Assembly (NCBI GenBank): GCA_030710605.1 | Contig: CP092863.1 | Coordinates: forward strand, 114,572,014-114,636,013 | Length of the DNA: 64,000 bases | Source of the DNA: Cordylochernes scorpioides | Taxonomy: Eukaryota > Arthropoda > Arachnida > Pseudoscorpiones > Chernetidae | Direction of reading: 5' to 3' | Shown here: piece after piece, positions 21,467 to 56,699 of the stretch | Layout: each line of letters begins with the position of its first letter | How positions within the stretch are numbered: the first letter of the stretch is position 1 | Translations under genes and position numbers: made by a program | The notes under the pieces: generated by a model | Databases searched by the model: none | What the model saw: only the letters and a program-made list of their open reading frames with translations | Told to the model about the DNA's origin: nothing

Positions 21467-21844
21467 TAATTAAAGTATAAATATACGACAAAGGTCAAAT
21501 CCAAATTTTGTTTAAGTTGAACTACGGAAGCATAATCTGCCCCTCGACCATCTTTGACTCTGATCTCAGAATTTTCTCAAGAAAAACTCTAACGCTCCAA
21601 AACACTAGACTTATCTAATGACCATGTCTAACAAAGACAGAAATTCTCTTAAACCTAAGTCAATATAAGTTATGTGAAAACATTTTGCTAACGTCTAAAA
21701 TGTATATAGACAAAGATGTGAGAAATCATTTAGATCAGGGAACAATCTCACTTCTGTAAAGTTTGGACAGTCGTAGATAAGTTTGTTCAGTTTCTCCACA
21801 GGTACAATTTGGCTGATAAACCTCTGTTATGTAAATATTGCTTA

Positions 21845-21862
21845 TATATATATATATATATA
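21845..21862. repeat. (TA)n at the left edge of the PLE cluster
   Basis: A short TA dinucleotide run directly abuts the end of PLE copy A. Similar runs lie at the right ends of copy C (33504-33532) and of the diverged copy E (35646-35684). Confidence 0.7.
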
Positions 21863-22493
21863 ATAATAAATAGTTATTTAATTTTATAGTCCAGTTTTGT
21901 ATTAAGATTATCTTCACTATTATGATCATTTAAATACAAATTATAAAATTTTGTAAAATGTTATTAATTTGTAGATAGAGAGAGAGAAAAAAAAAATCCT
22001 TTTCTTCTATTACATCCTCAAGTTAATTATATAATTATAATTAATAACAATAAAAAAAAATTAACAAAGTAACGTCTATTACATCGGCTTTTACACGTCA
22101 TTCAGACATACTCTAATCCTATATATAGAATAATCGAAGAGATAATATATATAATAGTTAGAAAAAAGATAGAAAGACAGAACCATGCACTTTTAATCAA
22201 ACTAATAATAAGGCAAAGAAAAAAAAAAAAAAACAAAAGAGAGTTTTATAAAGAAGGTAGATAAGATTGTTAGTATATATATATATATTTTTTTATGATT
22301 TTATATTTTATTCTTTTTTTTTTAAGATTTTTAAAGGTTTTTTTATTTTATAATATGATTATAAATAGTTGTATTTAGTAATATATCTATAGTATGAATT
22401 AACATTTGTTATAAGTTTGGATATTATGTTTTGAAACCCTAATGGTAGACCAGACATACACAAAAAACTTTAAATTGAAATAAATTGGAAAAA

Positions 22494-22570
22494 GAGATCT
22501 GCTGGAACGGGGATCATCAGATAAAATTCCAGCGACATTTCAACCCCTTCTTTATTATGTCATAGATCTC
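22494..22570 (-). ncRNA. PLE structured RNA (pseudoknot), copy A
   Basis: Identical to the structure described at 28379-28455, on the minus strand. Confidence 0.65.
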
Positions 22571-23098
22571 CTTTAAACCGGATTTTATGTGTTAATATTA
22601 AGTTGTTTCAGTGAAATATTTAAATGAACATATATAACAGATACAAACTTACCTCGGCCGCTGCGTCCTTCATTGTGAGTATCTATTTCTGGCTCACACA
22701 TGTCGCGTGAGGGGAATGTCCCCCCATATTTCAAATTTAGACCATTTTTTCAGAATTTTTTTGAACAACAAGAAAATTAAAGAAGAAAGGAAAAATAGTT
22801 AAAGGAAGAAAGCTAAATTTTATAATCTTTACAGCTAGTTATATCAAAATAACTGATTTAACACTTATTCATCTTTTAATATTCCTTTAAAAAGGCAAAT
22901 TATAAGAGTTTAATAAAGCTATTAATTGTGCAAATTCAACTTTATTTAACTTCCATTTTCCTCCCCAGAAATTGGAGATTAAACAAAAATGAACTATATA
23001 CTTTAAAACTTTAAATATCTTGTGAAAAAATCTTTTAATCAGTTATTTAATCAAAGTTTAATTAACTGTTAAAGGTTATAAATTTGTATTAGTTAATA

Positions 23099-25558
23099 TT
23101 AAGAGAAATTATAGAAAGTTGATTTCATAAATGGATATTTCCATTTATTTTTTTTTAAATATTTTATAATTGATATACTGTTGAAATATTTTACTTGTTT
23201 GATACTAAATTTGTTTTTAATAAATTCCATGTTTAAATTTTTAACATCTTCTATGAAATTATCTAATATATTATTTATTCTATAAAATCTTAGAAACTGA
23301 CCATAATATATACCTTTACAGCAATTTAATGATATATTAGAATTCATATTACAGTATTTTATAATATTGAAATTATAATTACTCTTTTTGTTATAAACTC
23401 TAACAGCACTATTTGTAAGGTCTATATTCAAGTCTAAAAAGTTAACTTTTTTGTTTCTATAAATTTTTTCATTGTTCTTAAGTTTCAAGTATTTAGGATA
23501 AATTTCAGGTATTAATTTTTTAAACAGTGGATTATTAAATATTATTATGTCATCTACATATCGGAATATTTGCCAATTAATATTATTTTGTAGAAAGTAT
23601 TCTCTTTCGTACCAGAACAAAATTAAATTTGCTAATAACGGACTAGAAGAAGTACCCATGGGAACGCCTTCTGATTGAATATATATTTTATTTTTAAATT
23701 CTATATAGTTAAAATTTAAAAATGTTTCCAGTAGAGTTTTTGCTGTTTTAAGATCTAATTTAAATGTTTTATATCTGTTATGAATAATTTTAATGTAGAA
23801 AGTTTTGTCATTAATGAATTCATTAAATAAATTGGTTATTTTATTATTTAGATCTCTTAAATTTATTTTAGAATATAGGTCCTCAAAGTCAAATGTGTGT
23901 ACTGTTTCAATGTTTGTCCAATTGTTCATTAAATAATTAATGATTTTTTTATTTGAGTCGATAAATTTATAATTATATTTATTAGTTAATTTATTTATAA
24001 TAAATTGTAGTGTTGAGGCTAATTGTATATCAATATTTTTTATGACTGAATTTATACCAGATGTGATTGTTCTGAAAGAAATAGGTTTTTTGTGTAGTTT
24101 AGGAATTATATAGAACTTTGGTATGTTTGGATTTTTGTGGTTATTATAAATTTTTAGTGAATTTTCAACATTTTTGATGTCTTTTTTGATTTTTGTGCCT
24201 GTAGTTCTAGCAAAAGTGTATTTATGATTATTATCAATTTCCTTTTTTAGTATATCGTGGTATAGATTTTTACAAATTAAAGATAAATTATTGGAACATT
24301 TATCTATAGGAGTGATAATATAGTCCTTCTGTAAATTAATTATATTTTCTTTAAAAGAAGGAATGTCTGAATTGGGTTTTGTGTATTTAAGTGTATTATT
24401 ATAATAATTTATAATTTCCTTTTTAATATTATGTTTCCATTCCAGAAAAGTAAATTCTGGAATACTGTATCTTATACTAGTTTTATTTATGAAAATATCT
24501 ATATCTTTTAATATAGATTTAATTGTATTATTATAATTGTGTTTAATTTGAGGTATATATTTATACCCTTTATTTAAAATTTCTTGATATTCTGGATTTA
24601 AAAAAGAAAAGTTGCTAGTTAATATATGACCTGAGAACTTATATTTATCAATATAGTTGTTGCAATTACATTTAATTTTTTTAAAATTTGCTAAATTATT
24701 AATAAATTGGTTATAATTGCAAACTAAATTACCTATATTTTTATTGTATCTCCAGATTGTTTTAAAATTTAAATTTTTTATAGGGAAAAGATTATTGATG
24801 ATTTGGTTATTAAAAATATCATTAAATTTAATATGATTAAATAAATTGTTATTAAATTTAATGATAATATTAATGTTATTAGTATTTTGTTTAATTTTTC
24901 TGTATTTAAAGATGTCGTGTGTAATATCTATTAATCTGTTAGTCAGATTATGAATTTTAATATATTCTATGAGTTTGATAAATTTATTATTATTTAGTTT
25001 AAATAATGTTTTAATAAATTTATCGACGAAGTTGTTAGTGTACATTTGTTTTGGGTCTAGTAATTCTTCAAATTCAATGTAACGTAATTTATTTGTAGTT
25101 TTACCTCTAGTTTTATTAGGTTTAGTTTTAAATTCATTTTTATATTTGCAACTGATTTCATAAGTTGAAATTTCTTCTGTTTGTGGTTTGTATGTGTAGT
25201 TTAATTCGTCGTTAAGTCCATAAGGGAATAATGTGTTGTGTTTATAAATGTAGTTGTTTTCTAATAATAGTCGTTGTTTTTTGTTTTGACATATGTCTAG
25301 TATTTCTATCTTAAAGTTGTTAAAAGTATGTAATTGATTGTGTTCTTTCATATATATATTACCAATTGATTTTTTAGCGTGGTTTCTATGTAGGTTTATT
25401 CGTATATTTAATGGATTACAGGTTTGTCCTATGTATGATAGTTGACAAATTTGGCATGTTAATTTATAAATAGTATTTACTAATTTACAACTAGTTGTTT
25501 GAAAAGTGTCATGGTTCTTAAGAGAGGGACAAGTTTGACAATTTTTTCTTAGGCAATT
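23099..25558 (-). CDS. PLE protein: N-terminal GIY-YIG endonuclease + reverse transcriptase, copy A
   Basis: An uninterrupted frame nearly identical to copy C (29672-32131); see that entry for domains. The first in-frame ATG is at 25351, but the open frame continues upstream to 25558 and there encodes the Cys-rich and GIY-YIG segments. ATG 25351 therefore lies inside the endonuclease and is unlikely to be the true start. One visible residue difference from copy C is near the end (KYLKKN versus KYFKKN). No stops or frameshifts, so it is young or recently duplicated. Confidence 0.88.
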   Translation of the reverse strand, partial: NCLRKNCQTCPSLKNHDTFQTTSCKLVNTIYKLTCQICQLSYIGQTCNPLNIRINLHRNHAKKSIGNIYMKEHNQLHTFNNFKIEILDICQNKKQRLLLENNYIYKHNTLFPYGLNDELNYTYKPQTEEISTYEISCKYKNEFKTKPNKTRGKTTNKLRYIEFEELLDPKQMYTNNFVDKFIKTLFKLNNNKFIKLIEYIKIHNLTNRLIDITHDIFKYRKIKQNTNNINIIIKFNNNLFNHIKFNDIFNNQIINNLFPIKNLNFKTIWRYNKNIGNLVCNYNQFINNLANFKKIKCNCNNYIDKYKFSGHILTSNFSFLNPEYQEILNKGYKYIPQIKHNYNNTIKSILKDIDIFINKTSIRYSIPEFTFLEWKHNIKKEIINYYNNTLKYTKPNSDIPSFKENIINLQKDYIITPIDKCSNNLSLICKNLYHDILKKEIDNNHKYTFARTTGTKIKKDIKNVENSLKIYNNHKNPNIPKFYIIPKLHKKPISFRTITSGINSVIKNIDIQLASTLQFIINKLTNKYNYKFIDSNKKIINYLMNNWTNIETVHTFDFEDLYSKINLRDLNNKITNLFNEFINDKTFYIKIIHNRYKTFKLDLKTAKTLLETFLNFNYIEFKNKIYIQSEGVPMGTSSSPLLANLILFWYEREYFLQNNINWQIFRYVDDIIIFNNPLFKKLIPEIYPKYLKLKNNEKIYRNKKVNFLDLNIDLTNSAVRVYNKKSNYNFNIIKYCNMNSNISLNCCKGIYYGQFLRFYRINNILDNFIEDVKNLNMEFIKNKFSIKQVKYFNSISIIKYLKKNKWKYPFMKSTFYNFS

Positions 25559-26569
25559 CTTAGCGAGTTTAAATTAACATAAAAGAGGTGCTAACACTAA
25601 TATGTTTGTAGTTTTTTTTAGTTTTTTTAGTTTGTTATTCTTATGAATTTTTTAAATATATTTTACTTAATTGTTTTTGTGTTGATAAAGTTTGTAATAA
25701 ATTGAATAATTAATCTATAAATATATAGATATTACTGTTTGTTATCTGTTATATTTTTAAGAATAACTAATAAAAAAAACATCTTTAAACTAACAAAAAC
25801 ACTGAAAAAAACAAAAGTTCTGAAATTATTTTTTTTCCTAGAATTACTTTTATAATTTAATTTTAAATAATCAAACAATGAAAGATAATTAAAATTTGTA
25901 TGAAGATTTATTTATATTAGAATATCTAATATAATTTAATTTGTATATTAAGTTATATATAAAAAAAAAATTATATCATAGAGCAAGCTCATATGAATTA
26001 ATATAGTGTAGAAACTATATAACAAAATTATAACAGTGATTCTAATTTTAAAAAACTTAAGGAGCAAACTGATAATAATGATAACTTATATCAGTTAGAT
26101 TTGATTAGATTAGCAAGCTAAATCTAAATTAATTATAATAATAAATAGTTATTTAATTTTATAGTCCAGTTTTGTATTAAGATTATCTTCACTATTATGA
26201 TCATTTAAATACAAATTATAAAATTTTGTAAAATGTTATTAATTTGTAGATAGAGAGAGAGAAAAAAAAAAATCCTTTTCTTCTATTACATCCTCAAGTT
26301 AATTATATAATTATAATTAATAACAATAAAAAAAAATTAATAAAGTAACGTCTATTACATCGGCTTTTACACGTCATTCAGACATACTCTAATCCTATAT
26401 ATAGAATAATCGAAGAGATAATATATATAATAGTTAGAAAAAAGATAGAAAGACAGAACCATGCACTTTTAATCAAACTAATAATAAGGCAAAGAAAAAA
26501 AAAAAAAACAAAAGAGAGTTTTATAAAGAAGGTAGATAAGATTGTTAGTATATATATATATATTTTTTT

Positions 26570-27850
26570 ATGACATTTTCAGACATTCCTTCTTTTAAAG
26601 AAAATATAATTAATTTACAGAAGGACTATATTATCACTCCTATAGATAAATGTTCCAATAATTTATCTTTAATTTGTAAAAATCTATACCACGATATGCT
26701 AAAAAAGGAAATTGATAATAATCATAAATACACTTTTGCTAGAACTACAGGCACAAAAATCAAAAAAGACATCAAAAATGTTGAAAATTCACTAAAAATT
26801 TATAATAACCACAAAAATCCAAACATACCAAAGTTCTATATAATTCCTAAACTACACAAAAAACCTATTTCTTTCAGAACAATCACATCTGGTATAAATT
26901 CAGTCATAAAAAATATTGATATACAATTAGCCTCAACACTACAATTTATTATAAATAAATTAACTAATAAATATAATTATAAATTTATCGACTCAAATAA
27001 AAAAATCATTAATTATTTAATGAACAATTGGACAAACATTGAAACAGTACACACATTTGACTTTGAGGACCTATATTCTAAAATAAATTTAAGAGATCTA
27101 AATAATAAAATAACCAATTTATTTAATGAATTCATTAATGACAAAACTTTCTACATTAAAATTATTCATAACAGATATAAAACATTTAAATTAGATCTTA
27201 AAACAGCAAAAACTCTACTGGAAACATTTTTAAATTTTAACTATATAGAATTTAAAAATAAAATATATATTCAATCAGAAGGCGTTCCCATGGGTACTTC
27301 TTCTAGTCCGTTATTAGCAAATTTAATTTTGTTCTGGTACGAAAGAGAATACTTTCTACAAAATAATATTAATTGGCAAATATTCCGATATGTAGATGAC
27401 ATAATAATATTTAATAATCCACTGTTTAAAAAATTAATACCTGAAATTTATCCTAAATACTTGAAACTTAAGAACAATGAAAAAATTTATAGAAACAAAA
27501 AAGTTAACTTTTTAGACTTGAATATAGACCTTACAAATAGTGCTGTTAGAGTTTATAACAAAAAGAGTAATTATAATTTCAATATTATAAAATACTGTAA
27601 TATGAATTCTAATATATCATTAAATTGCTGTAAAGGTATATATTATGGTCAGTTTCTAAGATTTTATAGAATAAATAATATATTAGATAATTTCATAGAA
27701 GATGTTAAAAATTTAAACATGGAATTTATTAAAAACAAATTTAGTATCAAACAAGTAAAATATTTCAACAGTATATCAATTATAAAATATTTAAAAAAAA
27801 ATAAATGGAAATATCCATTTATGAAATCAACTTTCTATAATTTCTCTTAA
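26570..27850 (+). pseudogene. PLE reverse transcriptase, 5'-truncated copy B
   Basis: The frame is open and matches the C-terminal 420 or so residues of copy C (from SDIPSFKENIIN to the end), including RT motifs PKLHKKP, TFDFEDLY, GVPMGTSSSPLLANL and YVDD. The endonuclease, the CxC region and about 330 residues of the ATG-frame are missing. The apparent ATG at 26570 comes from inverted copy-A sequence plus about 5 extra bases at the junction, so it is not a native start. One residue difference from copy C (HDMLKK versus HDILKK). Confidence 0.85.
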
Positions 27851-28275
27851 TATTAACTAATACAAATTTATAACCTTTAACAGTTAATTAAACTTTGATT
27901 AAATAACTGATTAAAAGATTTTTTCACAAGATATTTAAAGTTTTAAAGTATATAGTTCATTTTTGTTTAATCTCCAATTTCTGGGGAGGAAAATGGAAGT
28001 TAAATAAAGTTGAATTTGCACAATTAATAGCTTTATTAAACTCTTATAATTTGCCTTTTTAAAGGAATATTAAAAGATGAATAAGTGTTAAATCAGTTAT
28101 TTTGATATAACTAGCTGTAAAGATTATAAAATTTAGCTTTCTTCCTTTAACTATTTTTCCTTTCTTCTTTAATTTTCTTGTTGTTCAAAAAAATTCTGAA
28201 AAAATGGTCTAAATTTGAAATATGGGGGGACATTCCCCTCACGCGACATGTGTGAGCCAGAAATAGATACTCACA

Positions 28276-28296
28276 ATGAAGGACGCAGCGGCCGAG
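28276..28296 (+). other. Candidate 5' coding exon and splice donor of the PLE
   Basis: ATG-AAG-GAC-GCA-GCG-GCC-GAG is followed directly by GTAAGT, a consensus 5' splice site. It joins in phase 0 to the AG at 29670-29671 (CGCTAAG), after which the main frame reads N-C-L-R-K-N-C-Q-T-C. The intron would be 1375 bp. PLEs are known to carry introns. Against it: the diverged copy at about 34310 (minus) has TTG in place of ATG, though a donor-like GTAGGT remains. Confidence 0.4.
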
Positions 28297-28378
28297 GTAA
28301 GTTTGTATCTGTTATATATGTTCATTTAAATATTTCACTGAAACAACTTAATATTAACACATAAAATCCGGTTTAAAG

Positions 28379-28455
28379 GAGATCTATGACATAATAAAGA
28401 AGGGGTTGAAATGTCGCTGGAATTTTATCTGATGATCCCCGTTCCAGCAGATCTC
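28379..28455 (+). ncRNA. PLE structured RNA (pseudoknot), between copies B and C
   Basis: An outer helix GAGATCT (28379-28385) with AGATCTC (28449-28455) encloses an H-type pseudoknot: GGGG (28402-28405) pairs with CCCC (28437-28440), and GCTGGAA (28416-28422) with TTCCAGC (28442-28448). The last two 3' strands are directly adjacent, so helices could stack. In the diverged copy at 34827-34906 every helix has changed on both strands in a pairing-compatible way. Function unknown; ribozyme, translation or RT-recruitment roles are possible. Confidence 0.65.
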
Positions 28456-29671
28456 TTTTTCCAATTTATTTCAATTTAAAGTTTTTTGTGTATGTCTGGT
28501 CTACCATTAGGGTTTCAAAACATAATATCCAAACTTATAACAAATGTTAATTCATACTATAGATATATTACTAAATACAACTATTTATAATCATATTATA
28601 AAATAAAAAAAACCTTTAAAAATCTTTAAAAAAAAAGAATAAAATATAAAATCATAAAAAAATATATATATATATACTAACAATCTTATCTACCTTCTTT
28701 ATAAAACTCTCTTTTGTTTTTTTTTTTTTTTTCTTTGCCTTATTATTAGTTTGATTAAAAGTGCATGGTTCTGTCTTTCTATCTTTTTTCTAACTATTAT
28801 ATATATTATCTCTTCGATTATTCTATATATAGGATTAGAGTATGTCTGAATGACGTGTAAAAGCCGATGTAATAGACGTTACTTTGTTAATTTTTTTTTA
28901 TTGTTATTAATTATAATTATATAATTAACTTGAGGATGTAATAGAAGAAAAGGATTTTTTTTTTTCTCTCTCTCTATCTACAAATTAATAACATTTTACA
29001 AAATTTTATAATTTGTATTTAAATGATCATAATAGTGAAGATAATCTTAATACAAAACTGGACTATAAAATTAAATAACTATTTATTATTATAATTAATT
29101 TAGATTTAGCTTGCTAATCTAATCAAATCTAACTGATATAAGTTATCATTATTATCAGTTTGCTCCTTAAGTTTTTTAAAATTAGAATCACTGTTATAAT
29201 TTTGTTATATAGTTTCTACACTATATTAATTCATATGAGCTTGCTCTATGATATAATTTTTTTTTTTTTATATATAACTTAATATACAAATTAAATTATA
29301 TTAGATATTCTAATATAAATAAATCTTCATACAAATTTTAATTATCTTTCATTGTTTGATTATTTAAAATTAAATTATAAAAGTAATTCTAGGAAAAAAA
29401 ATAATTTCAGAACTTTTGTTTTTTTCAGTGTTTTTGTTAGTTTAAAGATGTTTTTTTTATTAGTTATTCTTAAAAATATAACAGATAACAAACAGTAATA
29501 TCTATATATTTATAGATTAATTATTCAATTTATTACAAACTTTATCAACACAAAAACAATTAAGTAAAATATATTTAAAAAATTCATAAGAATAACAAAC
29601 TAAAAAAACTAAAAAAAACTACAAACATATTAGTGTTAGCACCTCTTTTATGTTAATTTAAACTCGCTAAG

Positions 29672-32131
29672 AATTGCCTAAGAAAAAATTGTCAAACTTG
29701 TCCCTCTCTTAAGAACCATGACACTTTTCAAACAACTAGTTGTAAATTAGTAAATACTATTTATAAATTAACATGCCAAATTTGTCAACTATCATACATA
29801 GGACAAACCTGTAATCCATTAAATATACGAATAAACCTACATAGAAACCACGCTAAAAAATCAATTGGTAATATATATATGAAAGAACACAATCAATTAC
29901 ATACTTTTAACAACTTTAAGATAGAAATACTAGACATATGTCAAAACAAAAAACAACGACTATTATTAGAAAACAACTACATTTATAAACACAACACATT
30001 ATTCCCTTATGGACTTAACGACGAATTAAACTACACATACAAACCACAAACAGAAGAAATTTCAACTTATGAAATCAGTTGCAAATATAAAAATGAATTT
30101 AAAACTAAACCTAATAAAACTAGAGGTAAAACTACAAATAAATTACGTTACATTGAATTTGAAGAATTACTAGACCCAAAACAAATGTACACTAACAACT
30201 TCGTCGATAAATTTATTAAAACATTATTTAAACTAAATAATAATAAATTTATCAAACTCATAGAATATATTAAAATTCATAATCTGACTAACAGATTAAT
30301 AGATATTACACACGACATCTTTAAATACAGAAAAATTAAACAAAATACTAATAACATTAATATTATCATTAAATTTAATAACAATTTATTTAATCATATT
30401 AAATTTAATGATATTTTTAATAACCAAATCATCAATAATCTTTTCCCTATAAAAAATTTAAATTTTAAAACAATCTGGAGATACAATAAAAATATAGGTA
30501 ATTTAGTTTGCAATTATAACCAATTTATTAATAATTTAGCAAATTTTAAAAAAATTAAATGTAATTGCAACAACTATATTGATAAATATAAGTTCTCAGG
30601 TCATATATTAACTAGCAACTTTTCTTTTTTAAATCCAGAATATCAAGAAATTTTAAATAAAGGGTATAAATATATACCTCAAATTAAACACAATTATAAT
30701 AATACAATTAAATCTATATTAAAAGATATAGATATTTTCATAAATAAAACTAGTATAAGATACAGTATTCCAGAATTTACTTTTCTGGAATGGAAACATA
30801 ATATTAAAAAGGAAATTATAAATTATTATAATAATACACTTAAATACACAAAACCCAATTCAGACATTCCTTCTTTTAAAGAAAATATAATTAATTTACA
30901 GAAGGACTATATTATCACTCCTATAGATAAATGTTCCAATAATTTATCTTTAATTTGTAAAAATCTATACCACGATATACTAAAAAAGGAAATTGATAAT
31001 AATCATAAATACACTTTTGCTAGAACTACAGGCACAAAAATCAAAAAAGACATCAAAAATGTTGAAAATTCACTAAAAATTTATAATAACCACAAAAATC
31101 CAAACATACCAAAGTTCTATATAATTCCTAAACTACACAAAAAACCTATTTCTTTCAGAACAATCACATCTGGTATAAATTCAGTCATAAAAAATATTGA
31201 TATACAATTAGCCTCAACACTACAATTTATTATAAATAAATTAACTAATAAATATAATTATAAATTTATCGACTCAAATAAAAAAATCATTAATTATTTA
31301 ATGAACAATTGGACAAACATTGAAACAGTACACACATTTGACTTTGAGGACCTATATTCTAAAATAAATTTAAGAGATCTAAATAATAAAATAACCAATT
31401 TATTTAATGAATTCATTAATGACAAAACTTTCTACATTAAAATTATTCATAACAGATATAAAACATTTAAATTAGATCTTAAAACAGCAAAAACTCTACT
31501 GGAAACATTTTTAAATTTTAACTATATAGAATTTAAAAATAAAATATATATTCAATCAGAAGGCGTTCCCATGGGTACTTCTTCTAGTCCGTTATTAGCA
31601 AATTTAATTTTGTTCTGGTACGAAAGAGAATACTTTCTACAAAATAATATTAATTGGCAAATATTCCGATATGTAGATGACATAATAATATTTAATAATC
31701 CACTGTTTAAAAAATTAATACCTGAAATTTATCCTAAATACTTGAAACTTAAGAACAATGAAAAAATTTATAGAAACAAAAAAGTTAACTTTTTAGACTT
31801 GAATATAGACCTTACAAATAGTGCTGTTAGAGTTTATAACAAAAAGAGTAATTATAATTTCAATATTATAAAATACTGTAATATGAATTCTAATATATCA
31901 TTAAATTGCTGTAAAGGTATATATTATGGTCAGTTTCTAAGATTTTATAGAATAAATAATATATTAGATAATTTCATAGAAGATGTTAAAAATTTAAACA
32001 TGGAATTTATTAAAAACAAATTTAGTATCAAACAAGTAAAATATTTCAACAGTATATCAATTATAAAATATTTTAAAAAAAATAAATGGAAATATCCATT
32101 TATGAAATCAACTTTCTATAATTTCTCTTAA
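29672..32131 (+). CDS. PLE protein: N-terminal GIY-YIG endonuclease + reverse transcriptase, copy C
   Basis: It drives target-primed retrotransposition: the endonuclease nicks DNA and the RT copies element RNA. The frame is open from 29657; an ATG appears only at 29879. Upstream of that ATG lie Cys codons at 29675, 29690 and 29699 (C-x4-C-x2-C-P), IYKLTCQIC at 29759-29785 and YIGQT at 29795-29809. After the ATG come HNQLHTF, FKIEIL and LFPYGLN, completing a GIY-YIG domain. Numbering from ATG 29879: CNC at 228-230 with GHILTSN and GYKYIP after it (the CxC motif region); RT from about 340 (PIDKC), IIPKLHKKP near 416, TFDFEDLY near 487, EGVPMGTSSSPLLANL near 561, catalytic YVDD at 598-601, NFLDLNI near 637. 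No GIY-YIG follows the RT. The true start may be the exon at 28276 or a non-AUG codon. Frame is intact. Confidence 0.9.
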   Translation, partial: NCLRKNCQTCPSLKNHDTFQTTSCKLVNTIYKLTCQICQLSYIGQTCNPLNIRINLHRNHAKKSIGNIYMKEHNQLHTFNNFKIEILDICQNKKQRLLLENNYIYKHNTLFPYGLNDELNYTYKPQTEEISTYEISCKYKNEFKTKPNKTRGKTTNKLRYIEFEELLDPKQMYTNNFVDKFIKTLFKLNNNKFIKLIEYIKIHNLTNRLIDITHDIFKYRKIKQNTNNINIIIKFNNNLFNHIKFNDIFNNQIINNLFPIKNLNFKTIWRYNKNIGNLVCNYNQFINNLANFKKIKCNCNNYIDKYKFSGHILTSNFSFLNPEYQEILNKGYKYIPQIKHNYNNTIKSILKDIDIFINKTSIRYSIPEFTFLEWKHNIKKEIINYYNNTLKYTKPNSDIPSFKENIINLQKDYIITPIDKCSNNLSLICKNLYHDILKKEIDNNHKYTFARTTGTKIKKDIKNVENSLKIYNNHKNPNIPKFYIIPKLHKKPISFRTITSGINSVIKNIDIQLASTLQFIINKLTNKYNYKFIDSNKKIINYLMNNWTNIETVHTFDFEDLYSKINLRDLNNKITNLFNEFINDKTFYIKIIHNRYKTFKLDLKTAKTLLETFLNFNYIEFKNKIYIQSEGVPMGTSSSPLLANLILFWYEREYFLQNNINWQIFRYVDDIIIFNNPLFKKLIPEIYPKYLKLKNNEKIYRNKKVNFLDLNIDLTNSAVRVYNKKSNYNFNIIKYCNMNSNISLNCCKGIYYGQFLRFYRINNILDNFIEDVKNLNMEFIKNKFSIKQVKYFNSISIIKYFKKNKWKYPFMKSTFYNFS

Positions 32132-32659
32132 TATTAACTAATACAAATTTATAACCTTTAACAGTTAATTAAACTTTGATTAAATAACTGATTAAAAGAT
32201 TTTTTCACAAGATATTTAAAGTTTTAAAGTATATAGTTCATTTTTGTTTAATCTCCAATTTCTGGGGAGGAAAATGGAAGTTAAATAAAGTTGAATTTGC
32301 ACAATTAATAGCTTTATTAAACTCTTATAATTTGCCTTTTTAAAGGAATATTAAAAGATGAATAAGTGTTAAATCAGTTATTTTGATATAACTAGCTGTA
32401 AAGATTATAAAATTTAGCTTTCTTCCTTTAACTATTTTTCCTTTCTTCTTTAATTTTCTTGTTGTTCAAAAAAATTCTGAAAAAATGGTCTAAATTTGAA
32501 ATATGGGGGGACATTCCCCTCACGCGACATGTGTGAGCCAGAAATAGATACTCACAATGAAGGACGCAGCGGCCGAGGTAAGTTTGTATCTGTTATATAT
32601 GTTCATTTAAATATTTCACTGAAACAACTTAATATTAACACATAAAATCCGGTTTAAAG

Positions 32660-32736
32660 GAGATCTATGACATAATAAAGAAGGGGTTGAAATGTCGCTG
32701 GAATTTTATCTGATGATCCCCGTTCCAGCAGATCTC
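32660..32736 (+). ncRNA. PLE structured RNA (pseudoknot), copy C 3' region
   Basis: Identical to 28379-28455. The GAGGTAAGT donor-like site again lies about 80 bp upstream. Confidence 0.65.
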
Positions 32737-33501
32737 TTTTTCCAATTTATTTCAATTTAAAGTTTTTTGTGTATGTCTGGTCTACCATTAGGGTTTCAAA
32801 ACATAATATCCAAACTTATAACAAATGTTAATTCATACTATAGATATATTACTAAATACAACTATTTATAATCATATTATAAAATAAAAAAACCTTTAAA
32901 AATCTTTAAAAAAAAAGAATAAAATATAAAATCATAAAAAAATATATATATATATACTAACAATCTTATCTACCTTCTTTATAAAACTCTCTTTTGTTTT
33001 TTTTTTTTTTCTTTGCCTTATTATTAGTTTGATTAAAAGTGCATGGTTCTGTCTTTCTATCTTTTTTCTAACTATTATATATATTATCTCTTCGATTATT
33101 CTATATATAGGATTAGAGTATGTCTGAATGACGTGTAAAAGCCGATGTAATAGACGTTACTTTGTTAATTTTTTTTTATTGTTATTAATTATAATTATAT
33201 AATTAACTTGAGGATGTAATAGAAGAAAAGGATTTTTTTTTTTTTCTCTCTCTCTATCTACAAATTAATAACATTTTACAAAATTTTATAATTTGTATTT
33301 AAATGATCATAATAGTGAAGATAATCTTAATACAAAACTGGACTATAAAATTAAATAACTATTTATTATTATAATTAATTTAGATTTAGCTTGCTAATCT
33401 AATCAAATCTAACTGATATAAGTTATCATTATTATCAGTTTGCTCCTTAAGTTTTTTAAAATTAGAATCACTGTTATAATTTTGTTATATAGTTTCTACA
33501 C

Positions 33502-33532
<31 letters not shown>

Positions 33533-33533
<1 letters not shown>

Positions 33534-34825
33534 AAATAAATAGTTGTATAGTTTTATAGTTAAGTATTCTATTAAAATTATCTTCATTAGTTTGATTATT
33601 TAAATTCAAATTATAAATTTGTTAATTGTTATTATTTAGTATAGATAGAGAAAAAAAAAAAAATTCTTTACTTCTAAAACATCCTCTAGTTAATTATATA
33701 ATTATAATTAATAACAATAAAAAATTAACAAAGTAACGTCTATTACATCGGCTTTTACACGTCATTCAGACATACTCTAATCCTATATATAGAATAATCG
33801 AAGAGATAATATATATAATAGTTAGAAAAAAGATAGAAAGACAGAACCATGTACTTTTAATCAAACTAATAGAAAGAAAACAAAAAGTTTTGTAAATAAG
33901 GTAGATAAGATTGTTAGTATATATATATATATTTTTATAATTTTATATTTTATTCGTTTTTTTTTTTTTTAAAAGATTTTTTAAATTTTTTTATTTTAAA
34001 ATATGAATATAAAAAGTTGTATTTAGTAAAATATCTATAATATGAATTAACTTTTATTATAAGTTTGGTTATTATGTTTTGAAACCCTAATGGTAGACCA
34101 GACATATACAAAAAACTTAAATTGGAGTAATTATTGAAAAAAGAGGTCTGCTGAACCGGGACTTCTCAAATAGAAATTCAGCTTTTCAACATTTCATCCC
34201 TTCTCTATTATGTCTAGACCTCCTTTCAACCGTATTTTATGTGTTAATATAAAGTTACTACAGTGAAACATTTATATGAACAGATATAATGTGTACCTAC
34301 CTTGTCCGCGAACGCCTTCAACTGTAAACAACTATTTCTGGATAACACATGTTGTGGGGGGGGTGGGGACAAATTTAGACCGAATTGTGGGAGAACAAGA
34401 CATTCAAAGAATAAAGATAAGATAGTTAAGGGAAGAAATCCAAATTTTATAATCTTTACAGTCAGCTAAAAATTAAAATAATTGATTCAAAACTTATTCA
34501 TTTTTCAATATTCCTTTAAAAAGGCAAATTATTAGAGTTTAATAAAGCTATTAATTGTGAAAATTCAACTTTTATTTACTTTTATTTAATTTCCATTTTC
34601 CTCCCCAGAAATTGGAGATTAAACAAAATGAATTATATACAATATTACTTTAAAAATCTTGTGAAAAAATCTTCAAATCAGCTATTTAATTTAAGTTTAA
34701 CTAACTGTTGAAGATTATAAATTTGTAGTATTGATTATTGAAAGAAATTATAGAAAGTTGATTTAATAAATGGATACTTCCATTTATTTTTTTTTAAGTA
34801 TTTTATAATTGATATACTGTTGAAA
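33533..34825 (-). mobile_element. Diverged PLE fragment D (3' region), inverted
   Basis: A second, diverged PLE subfamily on the minus strand. It comprises the last codons of the RT ORF (34740-34825, matching ACTTTCTATAATTTC) plus the 3' region, including a pseudoknot at 34143-34222 and a splice-donor-like GTAGGT near 34300. Its left end abuts the TA repeat after copy C. Confidence 0.75.
34143..34222 (-). ncRNA. PLE structured RNA, diverged subfamily (minus)
   Basis: Inverted copy of the 34827-34906 structure, with all pairings kept. Confidence 0.6.
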
Positions 34826-35643
34826 GGAGGTCTAGACATAATAGAGAAGGGATGAAATGTTGAAAAGCTGAATTTCTATTTGAGAAGTCCCGGTTCAGCA
34901 GACCTCTTTTTTCAATAATTACTCCAATTTAAGTTTTTTGTATATGTCTGGTCTACCATTAGGGTTTCAAAACATAATAACCAAACTTATAATAAAAGTT
35001 AATTCATATTATAGATATTTTACTAAATACAACTTTTTATATTCATATTTTAAAATAAAAAAATTTAAAAAATCTTTTAAAAAAAAAAAAAACGAATAAA
35101 ATATAAAATTATAAAAATATATATATATATACTAACAATCTTATCTACCTTATTTACAAAACTTTTTGTTTTCTTTCTATTAGTTTGATTAAAAGTACAT
35201 GGTTCTGTCTTTCTATCTTTTTTCTAACTATTATATATATTATCTCTTCGATTATTCTATATATAGGATTAGAGTATGTCTGAATGACGTGTAAAAGCCG
35301 ATGTAATAGACGTTACTTTGTTAATTTTTTATTGTTATTAATTATAATTATATAATTAACTAGAGGATGTTTTAGAAGTAAAGAATTTTTTTTTTTTTCT
35401 CTATCTATACTAAATAATAACAATTAACAAATTTATAATTTGAATTTAAATAATCAAACTAATGAAGATAATTTTAATAGAATACTTAACTATAAAACTA
35501 TACAACTATTTATTTTTATAATTAATTTAGATTTAGCTTGCTAATCTAACCAAATCTACTTGATATGATTTATCATTCTGATCAGATTGCTCCTTAAGTT
35601 TTAAATGTAGTATCACTTTTATATTTTTATTATATAGTTTTTA

Positions 35644-35645
<2 letters not shown>
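34826..35645 (+). mobile_element. Diverged PLE fragment E (3' region), plus strand
   Basis: Nearly identical to fragment D but inverted, making a 700-bp-arm inverted repeat. It joins D at a GTTGAAA microhomology (34819-34825) that both parental sequences share, which points to template switching. It ends TTTTTACACTATA followed by a TA repeat (35646-35684). Confidence 0.75.
34827..34906 (+). ncRNA. PLE structured RNA, diverged subfamily (plus)
   Basis: Outer helix GAGGTCT (34827-34833) / AGACCTC (34900-34906). Pseudoknot helices GGGA (34849-34852) / TCCC (34888-34891) and GCTGAA (34867-34872) / TTCAGC (34894-34899). Compared with 28379-28455 these show A-U to G-C, G-C to A-U, and loss of one pair on both strands, so the structure is under constraint. 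Confidence 0.65.

Positions 35646-35684
<39 letters not shown>
35646..35684. repeat. (TA)n microsatellite
   Basis: A TA dinucleotide run at the outer end of the PLE cluster; see the other runs at 21845 and 33504. Confidence 0.9.
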
Positions 35685-35687
<3 letters not shown>

Positions 35688-35778
35688 AAAATTTGCCGGG
35701 AGGAAATTAATCCATAGAAGCAATGTTGTTGACGTTTATTTTGACGGGAGAGGCGCCCATTGCTTCTATGGATATATA
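35688..35778. repeat. RZ-B fold-back copy
   Basis: GGAAAATTTGCCGGGAGGAA, ATCCATAGAAGCAAT, a deleted centre, TTTTGACGGGAGAGGCGCCC and an inverted return to the CATTGCTTCTATGGAT end. No ribozyme left. Confidence 0.6.
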
Positions 35779-35869
35779 TATATATATATATGACGTGTTA
35801 TTGATTTATAATTAATTGTACAAAATGTATTTTACTTTAAAATGACTCGAAAGCTTTACTAAGGGAATA

Positions 35870-35965
35870 AATTCCGCCTTTGCCGGTCCCAAACCCGGAT
35901 GAAAAAAGAGGAGGGGGAGCAGTAACAACCTCACTAAAAAACCTGGCTCAGCTGGCCCGGCTGTG
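35870..35965. repeat. GC-rich dispersed repeat
   Basis: CCGCCTTTGCCGGTCCCAAA to CAGCTGGCCCGGCTG, a diverged copy of 15500-15602 in the same orientation. Confidence 0.55.
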
Positions 35966-36161
35966 AATAACTTTCAAATATTATTCATTGTTTCAATTAT
36001 CATGAACTAGGTTGATCTTGCTGAGCGGTACCTATTAAGGTGATTTGAACCAGGTATAACGCCTGGTTGATTAATAAAAATTTAAAAAATATATTTTTAA
36101 AAATCGATATTTTGAAGAAAGAGATAGATTGACATTTTTATAGTTCTTAAAAATTAATAAA

Positions 36162-43569: not shown

Positions 43570-44110
43570 CCACAAATGTTTCTTTTGAACTAAAAACCGT
43601 AATTTATTTTAAGGAGAAATAACGACTATTCCTATCCTTAGGGATGAGGTATGAAAGGATGAATTGTGAGAAGAGTAATGATGATTCCCATACCTGGACA
43701 CTTTATATTTCCGTGGCAAGGATAAAATACTCAGGAGATAAGTTTCTTCATTGATTTATTAAGACATCAAGCTTTCGGGCACAGCGTGGCCCTTCTACAG
43801 GATCAATCTGATTGATCCTGTAGAAGGGCCACGCTGTGCCCGAAAGCTTGATGTCTTAATAAATCAATGAAGAAACTTATCTCCTGAGTATTTTATCCTT
43901 GCCACGCATGTAATTGGGAAGATTTTACCGTTTAGAAAACTTTATATTTCCGTTTATCATTACTCTTCACAATGCATCCTTTCATACTTCATCCCTAAGG
44001 ATAGAAATAGTCGTTATTTCTCCTTAAAATAAATTACAATTTTTCATTCAAAAGAAACATTTGCAGTAAAATTTTCAAATGTTGTTCTACAATCATAAGC
44101 CACATTATAT
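43570..44110. mobile_element. tRNA-centred MITE split by a palindrome
   Basis: Left arm 43570-43690 and right arm 43938-44110 of the MITE described at 54185. The centre retains only ATTCCCATACCTGGACACTT. A palindromic insertion (43718-43908) plus about 30 bp separates the arms. TTTATATTTCCGT occurs on both sides of the insertion, like a target-site duplication. Confidence 0.65.
43718..43908. repeat. Near-perfect 191-bp palindrome
   Basis: Arms of about 94 bp (GTGGCAAGGATAAAATACTC through AAGCTTTCGGGCACAGCGTG to GGATCAAT) are separated by only CTG. The arm carries CTGTAGAAGGGC-CACGCTGT-GCCCGAAAGCTT on the outgoing strand, which resembles stem II and GAAA of a hammerhead but with a non-canonical core. 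Such palindromes are often lost on cloning, so long-read confirmation would matter. Confidence 0.85.
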
Positions 44111-56551: not shown

Positions 56552-56649
56552 ACACGCTTGTTCGGCGGTGCATGTACTGAAATTGGGGCGATGCAGGGAA
56601 GATTAGTGTGGTCCCTGCGCAAGGATGACACGCGGAATCGTAAAGCGTT
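56552..56649 (+). pseudogene. U6 snRNA retropseudogene
   Basis: It aligns over nearly its full length with U6 snRNA: TTCGGCGG in the 5' stem, CATGTACTGAAATTGG, GATGCAGGGAAGATTAG, then the strongly conserved CCCTGCGCAAGGATGACACG and AGCGTTC. Most differences from U6 are A-to-G or C-to-T transitions. It is flanked by a direct repeat CTCTCTCTGGTTGT (56538-56551 and 56650-56663), a target-site duplication, and lacks a T-run terminator. It is therefore an RNA-derived insertion made by a LINE-type machinery rather than a working gene. Confidence 0.85.
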
Positions 56650-56699
56650 CTCTCTCTGGTTGTCTGGGATTCCTCTTCAACTTGTGGTGTGATTATTTC

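Follow-up and report, generated by a model that had tools for sequence, protein, structure and literature searches.

A conserved pseudoknotted RNA in the post-ORF part of a PLE retroelement of Cordylochernes scorpioides

The PLE locus and its surroundings

The window analysed here, a stretch of 64,000 nucleotides of the Cordylochernes scorpioides genome (contig CP092863.1), contains between 21.9 and 35.7 kb copies of one retroelement, arranged in tandem, with a repeat unit of 4281 nt, and also in inverted orientation. The open reading frame (ORF) of this Penelope-like element (PLE), located at 29657..32131 on the plus strand and 824 aa long from stop to stop, shows by eye a GIY-YIG-like motif, NTIYKLTCQICQLSYIGQTCNPLNIRINLHRNH, close to its start, followed by what we take to be the reverse transcriptase (RT) motifs FDFEDLY, GVPMGTSSSPLLANL, FRYVDD and FLDLNI, which include YVDD and FLD. 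This endonuclease-first order is presumably that of the permuted PLEs (Naiad, Hydra). The comparison of the ORF product with the Pfam and NCBIfam profiles gave no match, neither to RT nor to GIY-YIG, and the comparison with the PDB gave four weak matches (E 0.22–0.69), to an RT named GsI-IIC and to telomerases.

Each unit carries a single small structured RNA, which maps approximately 530 nt 3' of the ORF stop codon on the sense strand. Unit coordinates are counted from the start of this RNA (u1): the RNA occupies u1–77 and the ORF u1279–3753. Along the element, a small cluster of copy 5' ends is followed by the ORF, by the RNA (u1–77 of the next repeat) and by two places at which copies recurrently end on the 3' side. 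The RNA lies 640–780 nt upstream of these recurrent 3' ends, and thus not in the terminal region to which the preliminary description had assigned it.

The RNA of what we call subfamily A spans 28376..28458 (plus strand), from P1 to P1, and is defined by its sequence, its fold and covariation in eight subfamilies. A second, identical A copy is found one unit (4281 nt) downstream, at 32657..32739 (plus strand), and a third identical one at 22491..22573 (minus strand), in an inverted element; subfamily B is represented at 34824..34909 (plus strand) and, inverted, at 34140..34225 (minus strand). All comparative data come from the same genome (2.6 Gb, 24 contigs), in which the A and B queries each detected at least 40 identical or near-identical copies. 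Relatives were gathered by walking outwards with ever more different copies as queries, and by one pattern search. Subfamily C was obtained from L038, D from L059 and E from L057, while F, G and H derive from relatives of L058, with H taken from L105; the subfamily letters are coined here. Subfamily C is present at 100% identity in at least 40 places, one copy of which was read. Two genome pattern searches for further subfamilies, one with the candidate promoter block and one with a poorly designed loop pattern, gave no matches. In total, 136 RNAs, 34 of them distinct, met the extraction rule, which skipped two RNAs. Since several subfamilies have many copies at 95–100% identity (at least 40 candidates per search among the matches listed), the carriers were active not long ago.

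Several other features were observed along the window. A second structured post-ORF block, at 27940–28029 and 32220–32309 (plus strand; z-scores of -5.4 and -3.7), consists of a long hairpin around TCTCCAATTTCTGGGGAGG, and A and B are 90–97% identical over this part. At 28771–28890 (plus strand), approximately 120 nt containing TATATATAGG are 100% identical between A and B, which is seen nowhere else in the 1.8 kb compared; this segment is a candidate promoter or protein-binding site. A G+C-rich stretch of the otherwise A+T-rich element, poorly conserved in B, extends over 28224–28300 (plus strand) and ends in GCGGCCGAGGTAAGT, which resembles a 5' splice site. Just past the PLE, at 35865–35916 (plus strand), there is a weak match to the Rfam type-P1 twister model (28.7 bits versus a curated score of 67.2, E 0.011), with a twister-like core, CCGGTCCCAAACCCGG, one change away from that of the model. 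In addition, a perfect inverted repeat with 97-nt arms separated by 1 nt maps to 43712–43906, and a U6 snRNA-like sequence (62 bits) to 56554–56659 (plus strand), the changes in which suggest a retrocopy or a variant.

Fold of the RNA and covariation of its helices

The preliminary description had proposed three helices for this RNA, and their strands were located as given, namely GAGATCT/AGATCTC, GGGG/CCCC and GCTGGAA/TTCCAGC within 28379–28455, and GAGGTCT/AGACCTC, GGGA/TCCC and GCTGAA/TTCAGC within 34827–34906. The fold that we obtain retains all three, but its outer helix is longer and two further helices had been missed, one probable (P2) and one likely (inside the P3 loop). Specifically, in subfamily A the outer helix P1 has 10 pairs, between 28376..28385 and 28449..28458 (AGATCTCTTT). 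It encloses the probable hairpin P2, with GACAT at 28388..28392 and ATGTC at 28411..28415, and the hairpin P3, with GCTGGAAT at 28416..28423 and GTTCCAGC at 28441..28448, all on the plus strand. Because the GGGG strand (28402..28405) lies in the P2 loop and the CCCC strand (28437..28440) in the P3 loop, the pseudoknot is a loop–loop contact, and the whole is probably a three-way junction of P1 and two hairpins, the loops of which pair with each other. There is no spacer between P3 and P1, P1 and P2 are 1–3 nt apart, and the RNA is followed by a run of T.

Energy folding without pseudoknots returned P1, P2 and P3 in A and B, and in six of the eight subfamilies, while the minimum free energy fold of E differs and that of H lacks P2. 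RNAalifold on 19 RNAs gave the same three helices together with a short helix within the loop of P3 (the inner helix), likely formed by ATC-TGAT-GAT at 28427..28436; this helix has two competing registers, in which 97 and 95 of 99 cells, respectively, are paired among 33 distinct RNAs. P2 shows no two-sided change and a single G-C to G-U change (in B and E), and every H copy that was read has an A-C mismatch in it. A pattern for a changed second letter of P2 found four single genome copies, one of which keeps a G-U pair and three of which are broken, so that they lend P2 no support. P2 is a probable part of the model, based on folding and on unchanged letters. The P2 loop is nearly invariant (CATAATARAGAAGGG..TGAAATG). 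As for the loop motifs CTGATGA, GAAA and GTC, said earlier to vary, this holds for the first and the last, but GAAA is present in all eight subfamilies.

The z-scores calculated without the pseudoknot were -2.8 for A and -0.9 for B (-2.4 and -0.4 on the opposite strands), in a scan with a step of 20 nt in which no window held the whole RNA and several ORF windows scored below the RNA. Given these modest values, stability alone would not have revealed it. Between A and B, four 40-nt windows placed over the RNA are 72–85% identical, and 67 of the 85 flank windows exceed the mean of these four, the flank stretches 28151–28330 and 28691–28770 being even less identical than the RNA windows. The RNA is thus less identical than most of its flanks, which indicates that its shape, and not its sequence, has been kept.

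In the representatives of the eight subfamilies, 215 of the 216 proposed base pairs are kept (195 Watson–Crick, 20 G-U and one A-C), in agreement with the earlier claim of a conserved pseudoknotted RNA. Two-sided changes occur in P1, P3 and the pseudoknot, and A and B differ by such a change in each of the three helices, as the claim of compensatory changes required. Pair 7 of P1 is A-U in A, C and H, G-U in D, F and G, and G-C in B and E; in P3, pair 5 is G-C or A-U and pair 7 is A-U, C-G or U-G; pair 4 of the pseudoknot is G-C in A, C, D and F, and A-U in B, E, G and H. The presence of 20 G-U pairs against one A-C argues that selection acts on the coding-strand RNA; on these sequence data it is likely the functional strand, which is also the strand originally assigned.

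Pair 4 of the pseudoknot ranks first among 3741 column pairs, and the wider alignment, drawn from the same genome, shows covariation. The clearest single case is offered by L093 and L095, whose 84-nt RNAs differ solely at both letters of this pair, with one extra difference, the last letter, over 117 nt. Typing of pair 4 in 84 RNAs gave 36 G-C, 32 A-U and 16 others. The latter are exactly L057–L072, which came from a pattern demanding a pyrimidine at the fourth pseudoknot base and which, being picked in this way, lean against the pair. The 68 copies not picked for a change there include no mixed state, and on their tree, built with the pair-4 letters omitted, the coupled state changes five times, or twice when well-supported branches alone are counted.

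Two further alignments were assayed. In A3, composed of 19 distinct RNAs that had not been chosen by their helices, 98.6% of the 513 cells are paired, and the helices are not broken in the majority of copies; when the 3' partners are shifted by 1–3 columns, the figure drops to 34–53%; none of 500 shuffles equalled the paired-cell figure or the covariation score, scores in A3 being inflated by relatedness according to the warning of the tool. In A1, with 25 RNAs and three pseudoknot pairs counted, 99.2% of 649 cells pair and the slid controls fail as well; three pairs change on both sides, a number reached in 88 of 500 shuffles. L057–L072 are included in A1, where 16 rows were pattern-picked or reached via that pattern, and are absent from A3; they account for 14 of the 33 distinct rows of the hand alignment, in which 14 of 132 pseudoknot cells are unpaired or gapped. 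One of the 34 distinct RNAs, L043, failed the rule of the hand alignment. Two A rows were omitted from A3, where MAFFT had misplaced their extra T; in the hand alignment subfamily A pairs fully. One of the two RNAs skipped in the extraction (L114) is part of A3. In three copies obtained when searching for H, a pseudoknot pair is disrupted, in L121 and L130 by a middle G to A change and in L127 by a C to A change; all three are in neither the hand alignment nor A3, and in the typing L121 and L127 counted as A-U at pair 4, while L130 was missed by the rule.

The loop–loop contact was also compared with random pairing. When 18- and 17-nt stretches were drawn at random from the unit (100,000 pairs), four consecutive G-C pairs, as in A, occurred at a frequency of 0.00014 and three, as in B, at 0.0026, while the shuffling of A's own loops gives a run of four at 0.002. 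The total pairing score, A-U and G-U included, is matched by 8.3% of the random loop pairs; the rarity of the contact therefore rests on its pure G-C run.

That these pairings reflect chance complementarity or shared ancestry, with no selection on structure, is a reading to which we give scarcely any weight. In its favour are the close relationship of the copies, the absence of covariation from P2, and the eleven top column pairs, which comprise, besides four from P1, P3 and the pseudoknot and one from the inner helix (rank ten), six correlated sites for which no pair is proposed. In addition, two of the five shuffle measures on A3 were not exceeded, namely the two-sided pairs (2; as high in 336 of 500 shuffles) and the further pair types (11; 500 of 500). 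Against this stand the lack of any mixed state at pair 4 in the 68 copies, a covariation score that no shuffle reached and the failure of the slid controls. All together, the evidence supports the conservation of P1, P3 and the pseudoknot in the coding-strand RNA in spite of sequence changes in all three.

Copy ends and candidate roles of the RNA

Copy ends were mapped on one unit, with which 42 merged blocks totalling 266,584 bases were compared by BLAST and the matches chained. On the 3' side, 38 of 43 ends fall in two places, 21 at u705–735 and 17 at u840–865, the remaining five being at u702, 910, 924, 1001 and 2801. A stricter run, on the window and 18 loci, set the two places mostly at u715 and u848; the stretch between them, 29093..29226 (plus strand), is bounded by u715–730 and u848–858, depending on the aligner setting. 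Of 41 copy 5' ends, four lie at u885–904, to which the stricter run adds one at u860, and the others are scattered. Four of the 41, each at a different position, are no more than 85 nt away from the RNA, where approximately 2.4 would be expected from an even distribution. One of these four was placed by hand, its reported position at u1 being an edge effect of the reference; the homology of this copy continues to at least u4243 and ends by about u4196, near the RNA and not at it. One B copy of the window begins 5–10 nt before P1 (34814–34819), and one D copy, in L073, which is outside the 41-end count, begins inside P1.

The insertions are head-to-head pairs of 5'-truncated copies with varied junction points (26573–26578 and 34819–34825), found also in L010, L015, L017, L019 and L073, a pattern suggestive of priming on both strands of a single target. 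For an Anolis PLE, reverse transcription is described as starting at two internal sites, leaving an optional 'tail', and both DNA strands as being cut and extended (PMC11167929). The two places of copy 3' ends resemble these start sites with their 'tail', and the head-to-head pairs fit the two-strand cutting and extension. Tandem and inverted partial copies with two such 3' ends are features that the element shares with PLEs of the permuted type. On this likeness, and if transcripts run as in the Anolis element, the RNA would follow the ORF and lie between it and the inferred RT start sites.

The retention of the shape despite the changes of letters suggests that the fold serves the element in some way. 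Considering the evidence on function, we place first, tentatively and at not quite an even chance, a cis-acting RNA domain acting as a putative recognition site by which the element's own protein would mark its template. The domain would sit in the post-ORF part of a permuted-type PLE transcript, closed by P1 and formed by the two hairpins P2 and P3, which the GGGR/YCCC loop–loop pseudoknot would lock side by side. The protein may bind this fold together with the RT start region and thereby select its own RNA as template, with the near-invariant P2 loop as the candidate specific contact and P1 and P3 as the scaffold. The distance of 640–780 nt from the inferred start sites speaks against such recognition, as does the Anolis element, for which the RNA needed in vitro is located within the first 172 nt of the ORF (PMC11167929). 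Moreover, the data are almost equally compatible with a 3' UTR element that serves a host factor. Such an element, comparable to a constitutive transport element and serving nuclear export, stability or translation, comes second and appears somewhat unlikely; the position approximately 530 nt past the stop codon on the sense strand and the second conserved hairpin block in the same UTR (27940–28029) point in its direction, whereas no Rfam family was found at the curated score, nor any weak match of that kind.

The preliminary description had hinted at a ribozyme, and this hint gained no positive evidence. A self-cleaving RNA of an undescribed kind, which would replace the PLE hammerhead and cut tandem transcripts into units, comes third and seems improbable from the sequence comparisons. 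The compact pseudoknotted fold, one per unit, would suit it, as would the starts of the B copy and of the D copy close to or inside P1, and other members of the element class carry hammerheads (PMC11167929). Self-cleavage is not supported, however, by the copy 5' ends, which share no common site at the RNA; a cut at this position would separate the ORF from the RT start sites, and no Rfam ribozyme family is found at the RNA even with E up to 10. Absence of activity alone would not be decisive, since the Anolis hammerhead cleaves only with protein present (PMC11167929); a protein-assisted self-cleaving RNA of a new class, replacing the hammerhead in permuted PLEs, would be more improbable still. 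A tRNA-like structure, or a substrate of RNase P or Z, in which P1 would correspond to the acceptor stem, P2 and P3 to the D and T arms and the pseudoknot to the elbow, is highly improbable. Although P3 directly abuts P1, only 1–3 nt separate P1 and P2, the arm loops pair and a T run follows, P1 and P3 have 10 and 8 pairs instead of 7 and 5, neither a T-loop motif nor an anticodon arm is visible by eye, and no tRNA model matches at the RNA. Recognition by the element's own protein hence keeps the first place. In this respect, a small covarying domain carried by many young copies offers a defined piece for studying template choice in PLEs, for which the first purified full-length protein has been reported (PMC11167929).

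Comparison with known RNAs

At curated scores, no Rfam family matches the RNA, in line with the earlier suggestion that it may be an undescribed element, and a permissive search over 28350–28490 gave two hits (best E 1.1), neither of them a ribozyme or a riboswitch. The Rfam models of the HDV-like, pistol and twister ribozymes gave none at the RNA with E up to 10, and none at five loci of subfamilies D, E, F and H. At these five loci, 21 Rfam hits were obtained, none at the curated score. Of the strongest, 16 are in L119 and L073, which contain RNA copies in inverted order that resemble long hairpins; the E locus L113 matches Arthropod 7SK with 18 bits (E 0.019, against a curated score of 44), which we regard as a chance match. 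Among the titles and abstracts listed from the open-licence literature, none concerned such an RNA, which is not proof of its being undescribed.

A hammerhead is defined by CUGANGA, GAAA and a cleavage-site core at a three-way junction. As previously stated, the RNA is not a standard hammerhead: the CTGATGA of A reads CTGAAGA, TTTGAGA or TTTGAAA in other subfamilies, and no Rfam hammerhead match was found in the repeated region (21500–36000) with E up to 10. Two further candidates were discarded. For a selenocysteine element, the ORF has no in-frame TGA and, by eye, the required letters are not conserved; for an SRP Alu domain, inspection by eye shows a suitable UGUYR stretch in most subfamilies, but the helix in front of it does not fit.

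Purine riboswitches and hammerheads both fold as three-way junctions with loops in contact. The RNA described here likewise consists of P1 and two hairpins with pairing loops, but its junction has no conserved unpaired core. In the pistol ribozyme, the loop of one hairpin pairs with a strand located within a subsequent hairpin, a pairing that our RNA shares; unlike pistol, it has no A-rich joining strand between the hairpins, and the outer P1 encloses all. The SRP Alu domain, in turn, combines a UGUYR stretch with two hairpins that pair through their G/C loops. Pairing G/C loops are present here as well, and UGUYR lies between the hairpins in most subfamilies (UGCCA in H), but the UGU is paired in P2 and no helix is possible just ahead by eye. 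All three differ from our RNA also by the Rfam searches, in which it matched none of them.

With respect to the hammerhead of the Anolis PLE, the RNA has neither the hammerhead core nor an Rfam match, which suggests that not all PLEs have a hammerhead, or at least none visible to Rfam here. The Anolis hammerhead overlaps the start of the ORF (PMC11167929), whereas our RNA follows the ORF; in both elements there is one folded RNA per tandem unit, located in or beside the repeated non-coding part.
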